This document shows positions 5,944 to 19,402 of a stretch of 40,397 nucleotides of DNA, piece by piece (the stretch's first letter is position 1; each line of letters opens with the position of its first letter). Source of the stretch: Eubacteriales bacterium (lineage in GTDB: Bacteria > Bacillota > Clostridia > Lachnospirales > Lachnospiraceae); contig JAUNFZ010000018.1 in assembly GCA_030524785.1 (NCBI GenBank), positions 1 through 40,397 on the forward strand, in the 5' to 3' direction. The notes beneath the pieces were generated by a model. The model was not told where the DNA came from and ran no database searches. It saw only the letters and a program-made list of their open reading frames with translations. A program made the position numbers and the translations under genes.

Positions 5944-5972
5944 TTGACAAATTTGTATGAAAAGCATAGAAT
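5944..5972 (+). promoter_or_regulatory. Strong sigma-A promoter of leuS
   Basis: Consensus TTGACA (5944-5949), a 17-nt spacer and TAGAAT (5967-5972) lie about 40 nt upstream of the leuS start codon. The short leader leaves no room for a T-box, so tRNA-dependent attenuation is unlikely from this promoter. Confidence 0.8.
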
Positions 5973-11834: not shown

Positions 11835-11852
11835 ACTAAAGTACATAATTTT

Positions 11853-11925
11853 GGGGACATAGCTCAGCTGGGAGAGCGTTGCGTTCGCAACGCAAAGGTC
11901 GCGGGTTCGAATCCCGTTGTCTCCA
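11853..11925 (+). tRNA. tRNA-Ala, anticodon CGC
   Basis: A complete 73-nt cloverleaf is present: acceptor GGGGACA/TGTCTCC with one G-U pair, D stem GCTC/GAGC, anticodon stem TTGCG/CGCAA with loop TTCGCAA giving anticodon CGC, and T arm GCGGG-TTCGAAT-CCCGT. The discriminator is A and CCA is not encoded. The 3' 36 nt (11890-11925) also form the start of the attachment repeat of the adjacent integrated element. The 3' half now present was therefore probably supplied by that element, with tRNA function preserved. Confidence 0.93.
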
Positions 11926-12034
11926 TTTTTTTGTAGAAGCAGAGATCAAGAATCCCTTATAAAATGGGTATTCCTGATCTTTTCTTTTTGTCGGGACAGT
12001 GTGATTTGGGGTGAAAAAACCTCAAAAAAGCTTA
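11890..12034 (+). repeat. attL-like direct repeat (tRNA 3' end plus terminator)
   Basis: About 145 bp starting inside the tRNA anticodon arm is repeated at 19260-19402. The first 42 nt are identical; the rest is about 90% identical with single-base indels. The repeat contains the tRNA terminator hairpin (about 11943-11980, followed by a T-rich tail). The integrase gene begins just inside it, as is normal for tRNA-targeting elements. Confidence 0.9.
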
Positions 12035-12049
12035 CTAACTTTTACTAAC
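12032..12049 (+). promoter_or_regulatory. Arm-type recombinase site candidates, left end
   Basis: Two TTACTAAC copies (12032-12039 and 12042-12049) with a 10-nt period sit at the inner edge of the left repeat, just beyond the integrase stop codon. Matching copies occur near the right end, so they are plausible arm-binding sites of the integrase. Confidence 0.6.
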
Positions 12050-12059
12050 ATTTTCAAAT

Positions 12060-13400
12060 TTAACAATTTTGAAATAATTGCAAAGATGGATTTGCTAAGC
12101 TATTGCTGATAGCAAGTCTTTTTTCATTTGTCCGTTCCACAATTCTTTCTTTTTCTTCCAAACCAGACACATCAAACGTATAATGCTTTTCATTAACGGC
12201 TGTTGAGTTGCCGATTAAACTTGACGTTATCACTTCCGAGACACCGTCACACCGCATATCGGAATTAATCTGCCGGCGAAAAGCATGTGTTCCTTTCGGG
12301 CGGATACCGATTTCTTTGCAACGGTTTTTCAGACAATCGGAAATCTGGCGTTTATGGATATGCCCGAAATTTTCATGGTAAAAAATCCACTCACTTTCAA
12401 TTCCCGAATCCCGCTGTACCGTTTGAATACGGAGAAGAAGTTGATGAATCTGCGTGGAAACAGGATAAACGCGGCTGCGATGATTTTTGACATCGCGAAT
12501 ATCATACTGTTTCGTTTTGACATCGTAGGTTTCGCTACGGCAGATGCCTATGTAGGTACGCCCCGAAATGGGATCAGTACGGATGTCGCTCCACTTCAAG
12601 ACAGATAACTCACCGACGCGCATCCCGGTTAATGCTGCCAAAAGGATTGCATATGGCGGAAAATAGAGAGAGTTTTCGTTTAGATCGTCTTGAAGGCGAT
12701 CGTATAACAGCTTCCAGTCTGCATCGGGAATCAGCACTGCGTCCAGAGGACGTTCTACCTCAACACACTTGCAAAAAAACTCCGAGCGTTGAATGTCTTT
12801 TGTCACATCTTCTGTGATATCCCTGTTTTTCTTTGCGGAACGGAACACATTTTTTATGTAGCAGAGAAAAGATTTTACCGCTTCCCTGCATAAATGAAGT
12901 ACCTCCATTTTGGAAAAGATAAACCTCTCCACTTCTTCCTCGGTAATATCGGCTATTGGACGCTCTGAAAAAGCTTCTCCTTCAAAATAACGCTTATAAT
13001 CTGTGTCATATTTTGCAATGGTATTGTTGGAGATTTTTAAATCATGCACTTCCCTCCACCGCCAATAGCACTCCTCAAAAGTTATGCCTTGCTTCTGCGC
13101 TTGTTGGATAGCTTTGTATGCTTCTACGATATCATCTTCCAGTTTCTCGCGCGTGGTGCGAACCTTTAACTTGGGCTTGCCAGAGGGTGTTGGTACATAG
13201 GTGCGCCAACGTCCGTCCTTGTGCTGTGAAATTGCCGCTTTGTGATTTTTCAATATTTCTTTTCTGGTCATGTCCTCCTTTATCTGGCTGTAATCGCTCA
13301 TGCTCATCTTACCAGCGTTTACAAAAGAACGCAAGATGCTATCGGCATCTTGTGCAGGCATTTCGTCAATTATTTTCCATAAAAAATCCTTGTCAAGCAT
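12060..13400 (-). CDS. int: Tyrosine integrase of the tRNA-Ala element
   Basis: Site-specific recombinase expected to integrate and excise the element at tRNA-Ala. The 446-residue protein has an AP2-like DNA-binding N-terminal segment (KDGRWRTYVPTPSGKPKL, about 61-78), a core-binding SAM-like domain (about 105-200) and a catalytic domain. The catalytic domain has Arg261 in LTGMRVGELSVLKW, Lys305, His372 and Arg375 in THAFRRQ, an Asn in LIGNST where His is common, and Tyr407 in KHYTFD. All key residues are present. The ATG is preceded by AAGGAG on the minus strand. Position next to the left repeat and orientation fit the Tn916/phage integrase arrangement. Confidence 0.93.
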   Translation of the reverse strand: MLDKDFLWKIIDEMPAQDADSILRSFVNAGKMSMSDYSQIKEDMTRKEILKNHKAAISQHKDGRWRTYVPTPSGKPKLKVRTTREKLEDDIVEAYKAIQQAQKQGITFEECYWRWREVHDLKISNNTIAKYDTDYKRYFEGEAFSERPIADITEEEVERFIFSKMEVLHLCREAVKSFLCYIKNVFRSAKKNRDITEDVTKDIQRSEFFCKCVEVERPLDAVLIPDADWKLLYDRLQDDLNENSLYFPPYAILLAALTGMRVGELSVLKWSDIRTDPISGRTYIGICRSETYDVKTKQYDIRDVKNHRSRVYPVSTQIHQLLLRIQTVQRDSGIESEWIFYHENFGHIHKRQISDCLKNRCKEIGIRPKGTHAFRRQINSDMRCDGVSEVITSSLIGNSTAVNEKHYTFDVSGLEEKERIVERTNEKRLAISNSLANPSLQLFQNC

Positions 13401-13419
13401 AGAGAAAACTCCTTTTCTC

Positions 13420-13533
13420 TTTAATATGCTTTTTAAGAAATTTTATCCTCGGTACTTCATGCCTCTATTTTTGTGACATTTATGTGGGCTCTGAGTTAGA
13501 CAAAACTAACCGAATCAAAAAAAGCATATTAAA
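13420..13533. repeat. 15-bp perfect inverted repeat in the int/helicase control region
   Basis: TTTAATATGCTTTTT at 13420-13434 has its exact complement AAAAAGCATATTAAA at 13519-13533. Both arms lie in the region between the divergent integrase and helicase genes, upstream of the helicase start chosen here. The core TTTAATATGC also occurs twice in the control region at 16.5 kb. It is a good operator or replication-site candidate. Confidence 0.75.
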
Positions 13534-13561
13534 AGAAATGGATATGCGGAGGTATCGAAAT

Positions 13562-15547
13562 ATGGGAAAACAGAATTATGATTTAGGGTTGGTAGAGAAA
13601 TTATTTACAATCATCAAAAAGGCGTATGATTGCGAATTCAGCAGCCAGCAGATGGACGGGATGCTGTACATATTGGATCGTGTCTATTCTATGATGAATG
13701 GGATTCATGTTTTAGCAGTGCCATGTGGAATCGGAAAAACAACGGTTATAAAAGTCATGGTTGCGTACAGCATTATAATGAAAATTCCCATGTTGATTAT
13801 CACTGATCGTCTAGAACGATTGGCAGAATATACGTCGCAGGTAGAATTGCAGCGGTATGTCAAGAAAATGTGCGGAAAAGACAGCTATAAAACAGATATT
13901 GTCAATTTATCCCAAAATACAGACGCACAAGCATCTCAAACGTTGGATAGGATGATTGTACTTATGTCATTGCAAAAATTTAATGGGTTGGCAACTGATC
14001 AGCGGGATTCACTCTATCATTTTGTTTCCACCGAAACAAGAAAAGATCGGATTGTGATTATAGATGAGGCACTGATATCGCATGATGTTGTTAAAATTAA
14101 TAACAATGTACTGGGACGTATAGAAGGAACGCTGCGAGATACCGTGGCCAGATTGGAAAATACATATGATGAATTACAGAACGCTATTAATGTGTTTTCG
14201 GGGTTTGCCTGTTATTTGCGTGACGAAATGGCGAGATTGGAACAATTAGCGGATAATGTGACACTGCCATTTGTTTGCTGCCGCGACAGTTTTACTGGAA
14301 AAGGAAAAGATAGTGAGGAAGAAGCGGCATTTTTGAGCACAATGCAGCAAAACATGAGTACAATAATGGGAATTGATGGAGACTTCAAGAAAAGCTTTGG
14401 AGCGTTATTGAATATTTTGAACAAAGAAGTTACATTTTTTGTATCGCATGGGAAAAACGATGCGCAGAATCAGAAAGAAGGAAACCGATACTTTCTGACA
14501 AAAATAGATTATAAAAACAGATTGCCAAAAGGTGCATCCGTCTGGATATTGGATGGGACGGCAGATATTGATATTCAATATGATTGCGAGAAATATCTGT
14601 TAAAGACTTCCAAGAAATTGCACCGCGATCTATCGAATATGACAATAGGGTTTCACACTGTAGCAACAAATTCAACATTATTAAAGAATAGAGAAAACAG
14701 GGATTACATTCAATTGCTCTGGGAAATAATTCGAGAAAAAATATTAATAAACTATTCGCTAGGTGATGTGATGATTTCCACATACAAGGATAAAGAAATT
14801 ATTCGGTTAGTAAAACAGATATCGGGGATTGAGCGAGTGGCTACCTATGGCGATATTACGGGACGTAATGATTGGAAAGATTGCCATGTTTTGGTTAAAA
14901 CAGGCATCCTGCGAAAGCCGATGATTGTTTCTTTGATGGACGCTATAGAATATTATCCCTATATCTGGGATGAACTGACAAGTGATTCTATGTCTACAGA
15001 GGAAAAAATTAAGCTGCTAAATTCAATCAGTGTAGGCGCATCAGAAAAATGGAGAAATGAAATAGATACGACGATTGTTAGCTGTTGGATGGTTGATTTA
15101 GTGCAGGAGATATATCGCCTGTGTATCCGAAACTATAACTGCACAGATTTAGTGACCGTACATATTTACAGTATGGCGCACAAGGCGGCAGAAGGAGAGG
15201 AAAATATTTATACAAAATTTTATGACGCGGTAGAATCATATTTTTCCGTAAAAGGTACGAAAATTATCAATTATGGGGGCGAGTACGATCTATATGAATT
15301 GCGCAGAAAAAAGCGCAAAAGCGCGAAAGGAAATGGAGAACCGGCAACATATGGGAAAATCATGCGGTATCTGGAAGAAATGCCATCTGGTACGGTTTTT
15401 ACATTGGGGCAATTAGCGGAAGATGTAGGAATCAAGTATGACACATTAAGAAAAGAGAAAAAGCGCCATAAAGAAATTGCCGATATGATTGACGGTATGA
15501 AAACGGGAAAACGAATTGGGAAAAACGAAGAATATTGCAAACCGTAA
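13562..15547 (+). CDS. P-loop ATPase, helicase-like, with C-terminal HTH
   Basis: A putative DNA-unwinding or DNA-loading ATPase of the element; I do not recognise its exact family. The 661-residue protein has a Walker A motif LAVPCGIGKTT (Lys59), a following LIITDRLERLAEY segment like helicase motif Ia, Walker B IVIIDEA (164-170), VLMSLQKF, and ILDGTADID (about 329-337), which recalls SF2/DinG-like motifs. The C-terminal 60 residues (TYGKIMRYLEEM, FTLGQLAEDVGIKYDTLRKE) look like a winged HTH. ATG 13562 is chosen for GGAGG at 13548-13552; an upstream in-frame GTG at 13484 would add 26 residues across the inverted repeat. An SSB-like gene nearby supports a replication role. Confidence 0.72.
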   Translation: MGKQNYDLGLVEKLFTIIKKAYDCEFSSQQMDGMLYILDRVYSMMNGIHVLAVPCGIGKTTVIKVMVAYSIIMKIPMLIITDRLERLAEYTSQVELQRYVKKMCGKDSYKTDIVNLSQNTDAQASQTLDRMIVLMSLQKFNGLATDQRDSLYHFVSTETRKDRIVIIDEALISHDVVKINNNVLGRIEGTLRDTVARLENTYDELQNAINVFSGFACYLRDEMARLEQLADNVTLPFVCCRDSFTGKGKDSEEEAAFLSTMQQNMSTIMGIDGDFKKSFGALLNILNKEVTFFVSHGKNDAQNQKEGNRYFLTKIDYKNRLPKGASVWILDGTADIDIQYDCEKYLLKTSKKLHRDLSNMTIGFHTVATNSTLLKNRENRDYIQLLWEIIREKILINYSLGDVMISTYKDKEIIRLVKQISGIERVATYGDITGRNDWKDCHVLVKTGILRKPMIVSLMDAIEYYPYIWDELTSDSMSTEEKIKLLNSISVGASEKWRNEIDTTIVSCWMVDLVQEIYRLCIRNYNCTDLVTVHIYSMAHKAAEGEENIYTKFYDAVESYFSVKGTKIINYGGEYDLYELRRKKRKSAKGNGEPATYGKIMRYLEEMPSGTVFTLGQLAEDVGIKYDTLRKEKKRHKEIADMIDGMKTGKRIGKNEEYCKP

Positions 15548-15550
15548 GAG

Positions 15551-15599
15551 AACAGGGGGACAATTCCTATATATACCTTATAAGATTTGTCCCCTTGTT
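15551..15599. terminator. Large hairpin between convergent helicase and SSB genes
   Basis: A 13-nt arm (15551-15563, ending GGGGACAA) pairs with 15587-15599 (TTGTCCCC...) with one mismatch around a 23-nt AT-rich loop. It lies between two converging stop codons and probably serves as a bidirectional terminator, although long T runs are absent. Confidence 0.6.
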
Positions 15600-15630
15600 G
15601 GATGATTATTTATTATGTAAATGATAGAAA

Positions 15631-15993
15631 TTATTGGTGTTCGTATGCATCATCTGTTTCACACGGAACGCCCCAACTGCTTCCGATGATTTTTAATACA
15701 TCAATTGGGGTAGCATCGGTCTGACTGTAAATTATAGCAGACGGTATGATGTAACCGCTGACACATACCGTGTCCCCCATTTTTATTGTCCCATCGCGTA
15801 GGCATCTGATGATGCCATCGGCTTCCCCATCGTAGAAAATCACGGGTATCGTGAAATCCTCGGGGTAGCCATTTTGATATATTTCTGTGCGTAGACATAA
15901 GCGTATTGCTTTTTGATGTTCCTTTGCAGATACATCATAGGGTGCGGTCGCAATGCGACCGATCAATGTTACTTCGTTACAACTCGTATTCAT
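15631..15993 (-). CDS. SSB-like OB-fold protein
   Basis: Predicted single-stranded-DNA-binding protein of 120 residues. The N-terminal NEVTLIGRIATAPYDV matches the first OB strands of SSB/PriB proteins, and VCVSGYIIPSA matches the later strand. The middle (FTIPVIFYDGEADGII) fits the SSB pattern in which a Trp/Phe core is replaced. An acidic tail is short and atypical (ETDDAYEHQ). GGAAGGAG precedes the ATG. It forms an operon with the upstream minus-strand gene, 18 nt away, and faces the helicase gene, as replication partners often do. Confidence 0.7.
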   Translation of the reverse strand: MNTSCNEVTLIGRIATAPYDVSAKEHQKAIRLCLRTEIYQNGYPEDFTIPVIFYDGEADGIIRCLRDGTIKMGDTVCVSGYIIPSAIIYSQTDATPIDVLKIIGSSWGVPCETDDAYEHQ

Positions 15994-16011
15994 GATATTA
16001 TACTCCTTCCG

Positions 16012-16392
16012 TTAATTTGCGGGTTTTATCAGTTCTGGGATAATACACCAAAATGATACAAACCATGTTTGGGCTGTCATAAAAATGTCATCGATATCAA
16101 CGATAACGGATTCACTGCTGTGTGACGTGAGCCATTCGTGCGCCGCCTCTACATTGCGATCAAACGCGCCAGGAGCACGGTCAATCAGATTGCAGACACG
16201 GTGGGCGCACAGGGCATCGCGCGCCGTAATGTTATCCGGCAAAAACGTGAGTCCATGTGTACTAACAACGGTAGCTAATGATTTGGCAACGGTCTGAATA
16301 TCAGCAGATGATGATATTCCGGTGTTTACGAATATCAACATTGCGATTTCGCCGCACGGATGTGCCGCCTTTTTAATTCTTGTGATCGTCAT
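16012..16392 (-). CDS. Hypothetical protein of the element, operon partner of the SSB-like gene
   Basis: I do not recognise this 126-residue protein. It starts MTITRIKKAAHPCGEIAMLI and has a predicted alpha/beta pattern, with CAHRVCNLID in the middle and an acidic stretch ESVIVDIDDIF near residue 100. The C-terminal region TAQTWFVSFWCIIPELI is hydrophobic and Trp-rich and could be a membrane-contacting helix. A near-perfect ribosome binding site (GGAGGTGAT) sits upstream of the ATG, so it is probably well expressed. It is co-oriented with and 18 nt upstream of the SSB-like gene. Confidence 0.65.
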   Translation of the reverse strand: MTITRIKKAAHPCGEIAMLIFVNTGISSSADIQTVAKSLATVVSTHGLTFLPDNITARDALCAHRVCNLIDRAPGAFDRNVEAAHEWLTSHSSESVIVDIDDIFMTAQTWFVSFWCIIPELIKPAN

Positions 16393-16464
16393 AAGATATC
16401 ACCTCCGTGATCACTATGGGTGCAATTGTTAACGAGTTACAGCGTAGGTGTAAAATTATTCTTT

Positions 16465-16553
16465 CCTACATATTTAATATGCAAGATTAGAAATTGTTTT
16501 TTAGGGGTTTGACAGTATCAATTCGCTGATTCACACCTACATATTTAATATGC
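16465..16553 (+). repeat. Two copies of an 18-bp direct repeat
   Basis: CCTACATATTTAATATGC occurs at 16465-16482 and 16536-16553 (71-nt period), each followed by a similar AGATTA-rich stretch. The inner TTTAATATGC is shared with the inverted repeat at 13420-13533. Iteron-like or operator-like. Confidence 0.75.
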
Positions 16554-16736
16554 CAGATTAAAAATTTTTTTTGCGGTATTTTGGAACTTATTATGCGCGA
16601 TTTGGAAATTTGAGAAATAGCATATTAGTATTGTAGTAAATTTATATACACGCAAATTATTTGATGAAAGGAGAAGAAAACGCCAGTGCTGCGATGGCGG
16701 ACGGAAAATATTCGTAGGGAAGTAACGCAGATATAT

Positions 16737-16795
16737 CATATCTAAAAGGTTATTTTTTGGAGTGATAACCACAGAAAATAACCAGTTTAGATATG
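16737..16795 (+). repeat. About 20-bp imperfect palindrome upstream of the second recombinase
   Basis: CATATCTAAAAGGTTATTTT (16737-16756) is complementary to 16775-16795 apart from a one-base indel/mismatch. The 18-nt loop contains a second ATAACC (16765-16770) that can also pair with GGTTAT (16748-16753), giving two mutually exclusive hairpins. This could act as an attenuator-like switch or as a protein-binding palindrome. Confidence 0.7.
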
Positions 16796-16955
16796 AAATA
16801 CGCGTATAGTGATATGGATGATTTATGCCGTGACAGCTTGCGACTGTTTCTTGGCGTGCCGTGAAAGTCCATATGATGATTTCCATGATGGGGCAACATG
16901 CAAAATGCCTTACGGCGGTTCAACAAATTGCAAATTTATCAAAGGGGGGAGTATT

Positions 16956-17993
16956 ATGGGGAATTTAAGATATGACATGAAGGAAGCCTGTTTAAACCAT
17001 ACTTATGCAGATGGCGCTGGAAAGCAGATACAAGATAACGATAGCGCAAGGATATATCGCAAGAGTATTAATTCCTTTTGTTTATGGATTAAAAACACAT
17101 ATAAAATTAACAATATTAGACAGCTTGAAAAAGCCGGCGGAGCGTTGAAATATGTGCAGGAGTATGAGCAGAAATTGGAGACACAGGGAAAAAGCGCCAG
17201 TACAATTCATACATATCTTTCACCGATTTGTAAAGGGCTTGGAATACATTTGAATGAAATTGAAAAACCGCATCGCAATGCAACAGAAATAATACGCAGT
17301 AGAAATGTGGACAGCAACCGGCAAGGCAAAAAGGATGTACAAAACCAGAAGTACCGGCGTCTGGTGGAATTTCAGCAGATGGTTGGCTTGCGGCGATCTG
17401 AATTGGCACGGTTGAAAGTTGGTGATGTCGCCAGAGACGAGAGAGGTTATTTTTGCATATCCGTTTCACGGGGAAAAGGCGGAAAAGCACAGTTGCAGAG
17501 GATTTTGCCGGAGGACATTCCGGCGGTAAAAGAGATTATAAAATCAGCAGTTGCCGCGGCGAGAAGCAGCGGTATGCCTTATGATGAGATTAAGCTGTTT
17601 ACACCGGTCGAATTAAAGAATAAAATTGATCTGCATGGTATGAGAGCAGCACAAGCAAGAAAAGCATATGCATATTATTTGGATAGATGTAAAACAGCGG
17701 ATGGAAAAGAAAAGATTCGACAGGAGTTAGTGGATAGGTGGAATGTTTGCCATGGGGAAAAAGAGCGGATTAGAGCATCTGGGGACGGATATACTGCTTT
17801 TTCATCCGCTGCGCGGCGGTTTATTCGGGAGTTTTCTATGGCTGGGAAATATGAACTACGCGGGGATAATAAGATTCGCGCGTTGGCATCCGGCAGACCG
17901 ATTATATATGATCGGACAGCATTATTGGCAGTGAGTGTGTTTCATTTGTCGCATTGGAGAAATGATGTGACAGTAAAACATTACATGCTTTGA
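16956..17993 (+). CDS. Second, atypical tyrosine recombinase
   Basis: Predicted DNA strand-exchange enzyme of 345 residues. The N-terminal half (about 25-110) resembles a SAM-like core-binding domain. Catalytic candidates are Arg146 in MVGLRRSELARLKVGD, Lys176 or a nearby Lys in SRGKGGKAQ, His227 and Arg230 in DLHGMRAA, His333 in HLSHWRNDVTV and Tyr343 in KHYML at the very C terminus. About 100 residues separate HGMR from LSHW, whereas about 25 is usual, so this family has a helical insertion. ATG 16956 follows GGGGGGAG at 16944-16951. It might act in excision, dimer resolution or inversion; the sequence does not say which. Confidence 0.75.
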   Translation: MGNLRYDMKEACLNHTYADGAGKQIQDNDSARIYRKSINSFCLWIKNTYKINNIRQLEKAGGALKYVQEYEQKLETQGKSASTIHTYLSPICKGLGIHLNEIEKPHRNATEIIRSRNVDSNRQGKKDVQNQKYRRLVEFQQMVGLRRSELARLKVGDVARDERGYFCISVSRGKGGKAQLQRILPEDIPAVKEIIKSAVAAARSSGMPYDEIKLFTPVELKNKIDLHGMRAAQARKAYAYYLDRCKTADGKEKIRQELVDRWNVCHGEKERIRASGDGYTAFSSAARRFIREFSMAGKYELRGDNKIRALASGRPIIYDRTALLAVSVFHLSHWRNDVTVKHYML

Positions 17994-18098
17994 CAGTGGC
18001 AGTATTTTTCCGATACATTTCCTATATAAAAACATAATCAGTAAGGGCGGCAGCATTTCCTGCTGTCCGTCCTTGACTACCAACTCGTAAAAGCAAAG

Positions 18099-18151
18099 CG
18101 AGACTGTCAACGGCGGGCGTAGCCCGTTCATCTGGACCGTTGACCGGCTCG
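18099..18151. repeat. Nested extended stem-loop, possible origin or RNA structure
   Basis: CGAG (18099-18102) pairs with CTCG (18148-18151); after a 3-nt internal loop, GTCAACGG (18106-18113) pairs with CCGTTGAC (18137-18144). Inside, CGGGC (18114-18118) pairs with GCCCG (18122-18126), leaving a 10-nt bulge. There is no T tract, so a plain terminator is unlikely. A GC-rich island in AT-rich DNA downstream of the recombinase fits a double-strand or single-strand origin, an oriT-like site or a structured RNA. Confidence 0.65.
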
Positions 18152-18172
18152 ACTGATTTTGCTATGCATTTA

Positions 18173-18346
18173 TTAATTTGACATATTATCGGATTTGACA
18201 TATTCGGCTAATTCCGGACATAATTCCACAAATTTCATTTGCTCCTCTAATGTCATATCAGATACAAATTTTTCAAAAAACTCGTTGTCCGTCATGCTTA
18301 CTAATCCTTTAATGTTTCGCAACTGTTTGTCTGTATAGTTATTCAT
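18173..18346 (-). CDS. Small acidic protein of the element (57 aa)
   Basis: A short gene encoding MNNYTDKQLRNIKGLVSMTD and a further 37 residues, ending YVKSDNMSN. It is rich in Glu and Met, predicted helical, and has no membrane segment. GGAG lies 8 nt upstream of the ATG. It is divergent from the first HTH gene with a palindrome between them, a pattern seen for regulator/antirepressor or regulator/partner pairs. I do not recognise the family. Confidence 0.6.
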   Translation of the reverse strand: MNNYTDKQLRNIKGLVSMTDNEFFEKFVSDMTLEEQMKFVELCPELAEYVKSDNMSN

Positions 18347-18417
18347 TTGCTTTGCTCCATTTCATTTATGATTTTTGTAGTACTTCGTCTTATAAAAATA
18401 TATTCGGTTTCACGAAG

Positions 18418-18437
18418 ATATTCAAGCATATGAATAT
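18418..18437. promoter_or_regulatory. Operator-like palindrome between divergent small genes
   Basis: ATATTCA (18418-18424) and TGAATAT (18431-18437) form a perfect 7-bp inverted repeat with a 6-nt spacer. It lies between the minus-strand 57-residue gene and the first HTH gene and is a plausible binding site for a dimeric HTH repressor. Confidence 0.55.
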
Positions 18438-18482
18438 GTTTTATGGTGTATCTTACAAGATAAAGAGGGTAGGACAACCATA

Positions 18483-18701
18483 ATGATTGATTACAGTCCA
18501 TTTTGGAATACGTTGAGAAATTCTGATGAGAATTGGTATACATTAACAACAAAACATAATATGTCCCACAGCACATTACACCGCTTGAAGCATAATAAGG
18601 ATGTTTCCATGAAAACTGTTAATGACCTATGTAGAATTTTGCACTGCAATATTCAGGATATCTGTATTTACGTCCCATCTGACACCGACCAACCGCTATA
18701 A
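18483..18701 (+). CDS. Cro/CI-type HTH regulator 1
   Basis: A 72-residue DNA-binding protein consisting almost only of an HTH domain (HTH_26/XRE type). HNMSHSTLHRLKHNKDVSMK is the likely recognition region, followed by TVNDLCRILHC, the usual end of the fold. It is paralogous to the next gene (shared MIDYxPFW, SDE, NDLCRIL and PSDxDQ). It probably controls the element's genes as a repressor or Cro-like factor. Confidence 0.82.
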   Translation: MIDYSPFWNTLRNSDENWYTLTTKHNMSHSTLHRLKHNKDVSMKTVNDLCRILHCNIQDICIYVPSDTDQPL

Positions 18702-18817
18702 GAACAGCTTAAAAATATTTTCTATTTTAATGATTAAAGCATAGTCATTTTCCTAACTATAGTCAAGAATGAAACCACGAATTATGCTCATAATATAATT
18801 TATTGTGAGGGTTTACT

Positions 18818-19036
18818 GTGATTGACTATACGCCATTTTGGGATACATTAAAAAAATCGGATGAGACAACATATACGCTGATTCATAAGCATGGTATTTC
18901 AAGTGCGATAATTGACAAGCTGCGTAAAAATAAGCCGATGAATACGACTACATTAAACGACTTGTGCCGTATTCTGAATTGCCAGCTATCAGATATAGCA
19001 CGCTATATTCCATCTGATGCTGATCAATCACTATAA
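18818..19036 (+). CDS. Cro/CI-type HTH regulator 2, paralogue of the preceding gene
   Basis: A 72-residue HTH protein that aligns over its whole length with the preceding one but differs in the recognition helix (HGISSAIIDKLRKNKPMNTT versus HNMSHSTLHRLKHNKDVSMK). It therefore probably binds a different site. It starts with GTG at 18818 after GTGAGGG. A terminator follows directly. Two paralogous mini-repressors in tandem suggest a CI/Cro-like switch made by gene duplication. Confidence 0.82.
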   Translation: MIDYTPFWDTLKKSDETTYTLIHKHGISSAIIDKLRKNKPMNTTTLNDLCRILNCQLSDIARYIPSDADQSL

Positions 19037-19037
19037 A

Positions 19038-19069
19038 AGCCGGAACATTTTTCATGTCCGGCTATTTTT
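19038..19069 (+). terminator. Terminator after the twin HTH genes
   Basis: AGCCGG (19038-19043) pairs with CCGGCT (19058-19063), with an extra ACAT/ATGT pairing inside, followed by ATTTTTT. Confidence 0.85.
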
Positions 19070-19149
19070 TGGAAATAATATAAAGAGATAGCTAAAAAGG
19101 AGCGATTACAACCAGTATTCCTTTCTATAATTTTAACTGAGCTTACAAG

Positions 19150-19179
19150 ATACTAACTTTTTACTAACATCTTACTAAC
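19150..19179 (+). promoter_or_regulatory. Arm-type recombinase site candidates, right end
   Basis: ATACTAAC (19150-19157), TTACTAAC (19161-19168) and TTACTAAC (19172-19179) recur with an 11-nt period, about one helical turn. They mirror the two copies near the left end, in the same orientation, as expected for integrase arm sites flanking attP. Confidence 0.65.
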
Positions 19180-19259
19180 TTTTGCTTTTTTGCGAAATTG
19201 TTAATTTAAAAATGCCGTATTTATGCGGCTTCCGGCGCCTTTCAAATTTGCCTTGAGGG

Positions 19260-19402
19260 ACGCAAAGGTCGCGGGTTCGAATCCCGTTGTCTCCATTTTT
19301 TGTAGAAGCAGAGGTCAAGAATCCTTATAAAATGGGTATTCTTGATCTCTTATTTTTTGTCGGGACAATGTGATTTAGGGTGAAAAACCTCAAAAAATCT
19401 TA
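19260..19402 (+). repeat. attR-like direct repeat with partial tRNA-Ala
   Basis: The first 36 nt equal the 3' end of tRNA-Ala (11890-11925) without the 5' half. The rest repeats the tRNA terminator hairpin and downstream DNA. This is probably the original chromosomal 3' end, displaced by integration. The gap from 19037 to 19443 otherwise holds only the terminator, the arm sites and this repeat. Confidence 0.9.

Follow-up and report, generated by a model that had tools for sequence, protein, structure and literature searches.

Small integrative elements that carry neither a relaxase nor virion genes are difficult to assign to a mode of movement. Phage satellites can be as small as the PICMI, which in the available portion of its description comprises 6110 bp with int, alpA and a primase gene (PMC10803314). 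Among integrative mobilizable elements (IMEs), those of the iOriT type have an integrase, a site in a tRNA gene or the 3' end of another gene and no relaxase, as described in the accessible parts of two sources (PMC11389934, PMC5704250). The replication genes named for IMEs in those parts are Rep_3, Rep_Trans, RepA/RepC, replisome organizers and DnaC, together with some relaxase-helicase fusions (PF01719-helicase). Here, an integrative element of 7370 bp is described in the 3' end of a tRNA-Ala(CGC) gene, at positions 11890-19259 of a 40,397-nt contig of a Lachnospiraceae genome (Eubacteriales bacterium, GenBank GCA_030524785.1, JAUNFZ010000018.1), the whole of which is referred to as the window. 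The element resembles PICMI satellites in size and iOriT elements in its missing relaxase, and is established as neither. It may represent a type of small hitchhiking DNA that has been little described. Judged from its sequence, there is about an even chance that it would be a self-excising, helper-dependent integrative element that probably replicates using a phage-type helicase.

The ends of the element were defined from the tRNA gene, which is the sole tRNA found in the window by ARAGORN, and from a 42-nt perfect direct repeat (11890-11931 and 19260-19301) with a start-to-start spacing of 7370. This repeat spans the last 37 nt of the tRNA-Ala gene. With gaps allowed, it extends to ∼12034 and 19402, giving 146 columns with 7 mismatches and 4 gaps (∼92%, counted by hand from the alignment). 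The combination of an integrase with direct repeats that restore the target gene is that of a site-specific integrative element. An earlier note on this DNA had proposed a 7.4-kb tRNA-Ala element with tRNA-derived direct repeats, and the predicted tRNA, the perfect repeat and the integrase bear this out. The end that it placed at 19402 is a true repeat end, but belongs to the second repeat copy; the element proper stops at 19259. An Rfam tmRNA match at 19256-19298 was below cut-off and corresponds to the right repeat. Within the element, G+C content is 0.34-0.44 in 500-base steps, compared with ∼0.45-0.55 in sampled flanks. The motif TACTAAC was found seven times in the 40 kb (1.58 expected; 0 of 100 shuffles reached 7), and five of the seven copies, all on the + strand, are at the element ends (12033 and 12043; 19151, 19162 and 19173). 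Their strand and position are as expected of integrase arm sites, and they are candidates for that role. The features of the element are as follows.

11852-11926, +: tRNA-Ala(cgc), the attachment gene, kept complete by the element (ARAGORN; Rfam tRNA, 70.5 bits)
11890-12034, +: left direct repeat, composed of the perfect core (11890-11931) and a further ∼104 nt in which an inverted repeat resembling a terminator was seen by eye
12033-12049, +: two TACTAAC copies, left end, candidate integrase arm sites (motif count)
12060-13400, -: tyrosine integrase, 446 aa (PF00589, E = 1.8e-12, above cut-off; phrog_1, E = 5.3e-35)
13422-13531, no strand: two TAATATGC motifs in inverted orientation, in the gap separating the integrase and helicase genes, candidate operator or iteron
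13562-15547, +: superfamily 2 (SF2)-type helicase, 661 aa, with GGAGG ahead of its ATG; in the longest frame the start is a GTG at 13484
15631-15993, -: 120-aa protein, possibly like an OB-fold or single-stranded DNA-binding protein (SSB), unproven (short match to the host SSB)
16012-16392, -: 126-aa protein matching phrog_19676, of unknown function (E = 0.0023)
16458-16627, no strand: region with a duplicated 53-nt direct repeat (81%) and TAATATGC in three copies (repeat and motif search)
16725-16805, no strand: long hairpin with imperfect pairing, located between genes (563-bp region 16393-16955); a possible origin or site of recombination
16956-17993, +: second tyrosine recombinase, 345 aa, from an ATG behind a G-rich ribosome-binding-like sequence
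18173-18346, -: 57-aa open reading frame (ORF) that may not be a gene (ORF list; Pfam, NCBIfam and PHROGs scans)
18483-18701, +: HTH_26 regulator 1, 72 aa (Pfam; copy in the same genome's contig C56)
18818-19036, +: HTH_26 regulator 2, 72 aa (Pfam; copy in contig C56)
19151-19179, +: three TACTAAC copies, right end, candidate integrase arm sites (motif count)
19260-19402, +: right direct repeat, outside the 7370-bp unit (repeat alignments)

Pfam, NCBIfam, PHROGs and PADLOC scans covered eight ORFs of the element, and the main ORFs are open, as the earlier note had it. No convincing relaxase, replication-initiator, capsid or other virion, or defence gene was recognized among the eight. The reported lack of mobilization and virion genes therefore stands for this set, with two slight contrary signals: a 32-residue PHROGs match of the helicase C terminus to a terminase small subunit (E = 0.003), which was set aside, and three plasmid matches of the 126-aa protein (E = 0.3-0.7), two of them annotated as MobF relaxase (E = 0.7). 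Beyond these hints, the eight ORFs include no relaxase as in IMEs of the iMOB type, no terminase, portal or capsid gene as in a prophage, and no HUH-type Rep as in an integrative plasmid replicating by the rolling-circle (RCR) mode.

Compared with the PICMI, the element has a similar size (7.4 versus 6.1 kb), an integrase, few genes, one replication-type gene and no capsid genes. The PICMI model, however, is one of integrase, AlpA, primase and Fis in Vibrionaceae, according to the available text (PMC10803314). Of this set, only int is present in the window element, whose site is tRNA-Ala and which has an SF2 helicase, a second recombinase and no known helper. Its stand-alone helicase is likewise not among the IME replication genes named in the accessible parts of PMC11389934 and PMC5704250, and no origin of transfer (oriT) was identified. 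An atypical strand-biased integrative element with tyrosine recombinases, as outlined in part of PMC9345347, can be likened to it by description only. In a partial literature search, no published element characterized by this helicase came to light, which is no proof of absence.

The helicase is the protein that links this element to a particular kind of phage. Its best Pfam match, ResIII, is below cut-off (E = 0.0032), and across the family Pfam and PHROGs scans yielded either no match or matches under threshold; the NCBIfam scan covered only the window protein. In an alignment of six helicases, pairwise 18-42% identical (18-23% for the window protein against its relatives), the residues GxGK, DE, DxT, GxxxGxN and QxxxRxxxR are invariant; we take these blocks to be SF2 motifs I, II, III, V and VI, respectively. 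On the strength of the Walker A, DE box and motif III, V and VI residues, the window protein was classed as an SF2 helicase, its Pfam scores being sub-threshold. A sequence search of the PDB gave no match, and the predicted structure (predicted local distance difference test score, pLDDT, 40) was too poor for use.

Relatives of the helicase were rare in the searches made. With the single sequence, no relatives were found in viral_contigs, PLSDB plasmids or INPHARED phages, and none of 19 pattern stretches in genome_contigs was confirmed. With profiles, 0 of 60 and 0 of 59 stretches were confirmed in viral_contigs and 2 of 166 in genome_contigs, namely L061 and a Robinsoniella peoriensis record taken as the same as genome G179 and counted once. 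Among genome samples that overlap one another, the helicase was present, counting the window's own genome, in 2 of 397 genomes of the family (the other being G179), 3 of 295 of the order (with G435 and G467) and 4 of 255 of the class (with G879, G779 and a weak profile match in G907, C26:12902-13222, L071, E = 5.9e-5). The known family thus comprises the window copy and seven others, L061 included. Pattern scans overlook divergent relatives, and the rarity holds for those searches alone.

Four of the seven relatives are located in phage-like loci (L061, L015/L077, L067 and L068) near candidate YonO-type RNA polymerases; the latter pair carry terminase genes by PHROGs, the others weaker signs. 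The RNA polymerase YonO of phage SPbeta has a catalytic aspartate triad, as given in the part of the source available (PMC5467207). In L067, a 1168-aa protein (Pfam RdRP, E = 1.1e-14; phrog_8308) is followed by the helicase and then by the small and large terminase subunits. In L068, where terminases are also present, the helicase adjoins an 1164-aa protein with no Pfam or PHROG match and a DKDGD motif seen by eye. In L061, the helicase is accompanied by proteins matching phrog_8308 (1072 aa) and phrog_32441. In G179, the helicase (L015) has a Rha regulator some kilobases off, and ∼6.5 kb behind it (L077) is a 1075-aa protein with ADFDGD, by eye, and no Pfam match. As YonO-type candidates, the large proteins are firmest in L067 and moderate in L061, and are recognizable by motif only in L068 and G179 (L077). 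A tape-measure-like ORF was also seen by eye in L061, with a weak DUF745 match alone, and a tape-measure-like ORF of 2968 aa in L077.

The helicases of three of these loci are 20-23% identical to the window protein and that of L068 18%; those of L067 and L068 had no INPHARED match. What the loci share with the window element is the helicase family, whereas the phage genes are theirs alone. Given that four of the seven relatives are in phage-like loci, the helicase gene, though not the element as a whole, is likely of phage descent. The gene ties the element to a phage type with a candidate YonO-like RNA polymerase, and conversely the element offers a lead to the role of this phage helicase family.

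The earlier note had suggested searching clostridial genomes for the helicase and seeing whether the same gene set recurs at tRNA genes. Apart from the four phage-like relatives, this revealed a second compact element, in G879 (L074, 5964-13078), with a window-type helicase but a protein gene as its site. It belongs to a different family of the same class. A 117-nt repeat (89%) at 5964 and 12962, with a spacing of 6998, lies at the 3' end of the protein gene, and the gene set comprises a tyrosine integrase (PF00589, E = 1e-29), HTH_3, zinc-ribbon and NUMOD4 proteins, the helicase (DEAD, E = 0.0018, sub-threshold) and a serine resolvase (E = 6e-23). Of the six ORFs scanned, none matched a relaxase or virion family. 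The two elements have in common the helicase family, a tyrosine integrase, a helix-turn-helix (HTH) protein, a second recombinase, the size class (7.0 kb in G879) and the lack of a transfer or virion family in the ORFs scanned. They differ in site, in the second recombinase (serine rather than tyrosine), in the zinc-ribbon and NUMOD4 proteins of G879 and in helicases that are only 22% identical. The layout of integrase, helicase and second recombinase has therefore been seen again. The only other genome of the G879 family sampled gave no helicase match (1 of 2 genomes, including G879). Because the helicase marks a definite phage type and a second element of similar layout exists, the helper and the replication mode become directly testable.

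Relatives of the window integrase at E ≤ 1e-40 were found in 3 of 397 family genomes, counting its own; the others (G191 and G349) are 36-37% identical. In G191, the integrase (37%) belongs to a 5.0-kb element at the 3' end of tRNA-Pro (L034, 6858-11907), with 35-nt repeats (86%) spaced 5015 apart and an RCR Rep (PF23343, E = 2.8e-23). Like the window element, it is small and has short end repeats; HTH-like genes, and GTTGG repeats at both ends that recall the TACTAAC ends, were seen by eye. It differs in its Rep and a GNAT-like gene, also noted by eye, and no helicase or second recombinase was noticed among its listed ORFs. The relative in G349 sits at a contig end, and the surrounding element could not be delimited. 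The integrase had no INPHARED phage match at 1e-20, and in viral_contigs none of four pattern stretches was confirmed. Its lineage thus serves at least one other small element, in this case one with a different replication gene.

The second recombinase gave two sub-threshold Pfam matches, to Smr (E = 4.5e-5) and PF00589 (E = 9.8e-5), and was taken to belong to the latter type because the Smr match falls where its relatives align with their HxxR motif. The catalytic residues of tyrosine recombinases are R-K-H-R-H-Y. This set is complete in the protein encoded at 16956-17993, where R146, K174, H227, R230, H333 and Y343 are invariant across 10 aligned sequences (the window's own included, and a chosen part of the matches). 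Its matches in the PDB were IntI4 (E = 0.083) and a XerC-like recombinase (E = 0.34). Related proteins occur in 10 of 397 family genomes, including its own, and in three plasmid records (pYA01-1, pATHE02 and pRGI00233; 26-29% identity over 46-58% of the query); pYA01-1 and pATHE02 are 3.5-3.7-kb plasmids with RepL. In viral_contigs, none of 33 stretches was confirmed, and two S. suis phage records contain a protein to which it is 37.9% identical over 98%. A plasmid-only protein was considered and rejected, since these phage records are the sole matches with 98% coverage and other relatives are on large contigs. Contig C100 of G383 (4098 bp; L017) carries a relative that is 36% identical over the C-terminal part, and is probably a small circular plasmid because its first and last 55 nt are identical. 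It also has a 240-aa ORF without a Pfam family. Another relative (33% identical; L018, 608-1465) is near the end of contig C77 of the window's own genome, and a third (G229; L016, 9516-13252) has an ArdC-type antirestriction gene and an integrase of the Tn916 type as neighbours and may be part of another very small two-recombinase element.

Two intergenic regions contain repeats that could be of use in replication or regulation. The motif TAATATGC occurs seven times in the window (1.62 expected; 1 of 100 shuffles reached 7), and five of the seven copies fall within the element's two main intergenic regions. The hairpin at 16725-16805 has z scores of -7.49 (+ strand) and -7.40 (- strand), and none of 200 shuffles folded as well, compared with z scores of -0.83 and -1.72, which are not unusual, for the other two intergenic stretches folded. 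Inverted repeats are present upstream of some second-recombinase relatives. An Rfam mir-9571 match at 16720-16808 was far below cut-off and reflects the hairpin.

Taken together, these data can be accommodated in the following model. The integrase would excise a 7370-bp circle, leaving the tRNA whole, and the paired HTH proteins (HTH_26, E = 1e-10 and 1e-12, above cut-off; 54% identical to each other) would hold the element silent; both roles follow from the known families of these proteins. The helicase, perhaps with the small proteins encoded at 15631-16392, would open an origin in the region 16393-16955 that bears the repeats and the hairpin, and host or phage polymerases would copy the excised circle. 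Multimers would be resolved by the second recombinase, whose relatives include small-plasmid genes. Transfer would be by hitchhiking, either in phage particles or by means of a relaxase acting in trans. A function in replication appears the likeliest for the helicase because an RCR Rep accompanies the sibling of the integrase and the second recombinase has some relatives carried by replicons.

Several observations weigh against this model. No origin-binding initiator or primase was recognized in the eight ORFs, and a second helicase copy is absent from the host genome, so that no helper of that type is present there. The helicase and SSB that the earlier note had paired as a replication cassette are not supported as such, since the SSB identity of the 120-aa protein is unproven and has one weak 26-residue match behind it. 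The longer form of TAATATGC, with two mismatches allowed, is not enriched (39 versus 32.5 expected), and the enrichment of the short form is descriptive, the motif having been chosen after the repeats were seen. As a conserved recombinase partner the hairpin is unsupported: upstream regions of four of nine relatives lack an inverted repeat at the settings used. The helicases of the window and G879 elements are 22% identical, that of G879 being nearer to Robinsoniella (31.5%), and the two elements may have acquired the gene separately; the tree does not resolve this (support 48). Finally, one helicase relative adjoins BREX-like genes, and a role in defence is possible for that reason.

Among more specific readings of a helper-dependent element, the one with the best claim, although clearly less probable than the general model, is a phage satellite. 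Its helicase would derive from a phage encoding a YonO-type polymerase, and on infection by a phage of that type the element would excise, replicate and be packaged by it. It would account for the four of seven homologues in phage-like loci (two with terminase genes, two with weaker signs) and for the resemblance of the second recombinase to the S. suis phage protein, and the PICMIs are similarly small (6110 bp) and have no capsid-remodelling genes in the available text (PMC10803314). Set against this, no AlpA-like, packaging or capsid-remodelling gene was recognized in the eight ORFs and the host has no second helicase copy. A bolder version, that integrase, YonO-phage-type helicase and second recombinase define a new Clostridia family of RNA-polymerase-phage satellites that took the helicase from such phages at least twice, is doubtful.

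Somewhat less likely than a satellite is an iOriT-type element that travels by means of a relaxase and mating channel provided by a resident integrative and conjugative element (ICE) or conjugative plasmid. Relaxase-less IMEs are an accepted class in the accessible part of PMC11389934, and the replication genes present in some IMEs are considered to serve in maintaining the excised form, according to that of PMC5704250; the strong hairpin in a large intergenic region would also fit. By contrast, no oriT was identified from general repeats and folds, known oriT families not having been searched.

It is improbable that the helicase serves as anti-phage or phage-interference cargo rather than in replication. 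The case for it comes from a distant homologue in G779 (L075, 8636-10228; profile E = 5e-20) near a contig end, behind BREX-like genes that are presumably pglX, pglZ and brxL; against it, the window helicase has no PADLOC match and four homologues are in phage-like loci. Similarly improbable is a reduced, now immobile remnant of a prophage or ICE, for although most relatives of the helicase are in phage-like loci and a decayed-looking island in the host with a truncated integrase has the same HTH pair, the main ORFs of the window element are open, the recombinase catalytic residues and both repeats are kept, G879 has a second compact element of similar layout, and the integrase matches at E ≤ 1e-40 are without phage or ICE context (G349 being undelimited). 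The earlier note had allowed that the gene set might prove a degraded part of a larger ICE or prophage family; nothing of the kind emerged in the searches made, the integrase matches at that threshold among the family genomes being the G191 element and the G349 contig end.

The 120-aa protein has no Pfam match and no PLSDB plasmid relative at E ≤ 1, and among 17 genomes only the protein itself was recovered at E ≤ 1. The SSB family PF00436 detected SSBs in all seven genomes searched. A direct BLASTP comparison with the host SSB domain aligned 26 N-terminal residues (38%; E = 0.015 for a single comparison). In the PDB, just two chance-level matches to ribosomal proteins were obtained, and an AlphaFold2 model (pLDDT 41) was uninformative.

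The history of the site was examined by means of the ∼104-nt segment that follows the tRNA. At E < 1e-30, it occurs three times in the genome: in both window repeats and at the end of contig C56, where positions 1-103 are 96% identical to window positions 11927-12029. In C56 (L046, 1-4000), the segment follows another tRNA-like 3' end, and a near-identical copy of the HTH pair is present (∼725 nt with 5 differences by our count, ∼99%). No same-species empty site was seen in the comparison, which covered eight same-genus genomes. Two of these genomes (G402 and G401) have an identical tRNA-Ala followed directly by another terminator-like sequence, and in G402 the gene that comes next resembles, on visual inspection, the neighbouring gene in the window. 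A native flank is thus an unlikely explanation for the 104-nt segment, as all three copies are beside element ends and other sequence is found in G402 and G401. The right-hand copy would instead be the trace of an earlier or tandem insertion. We infer that related elements whose modules can be exchanged have inserted one after another, the host holding one intact-looking and one decayed example. The C56 island itself contains, in addition to the truncated integrase, a CopG-like ORF and AbiEi/AbiEii-like genes, all named by eye.

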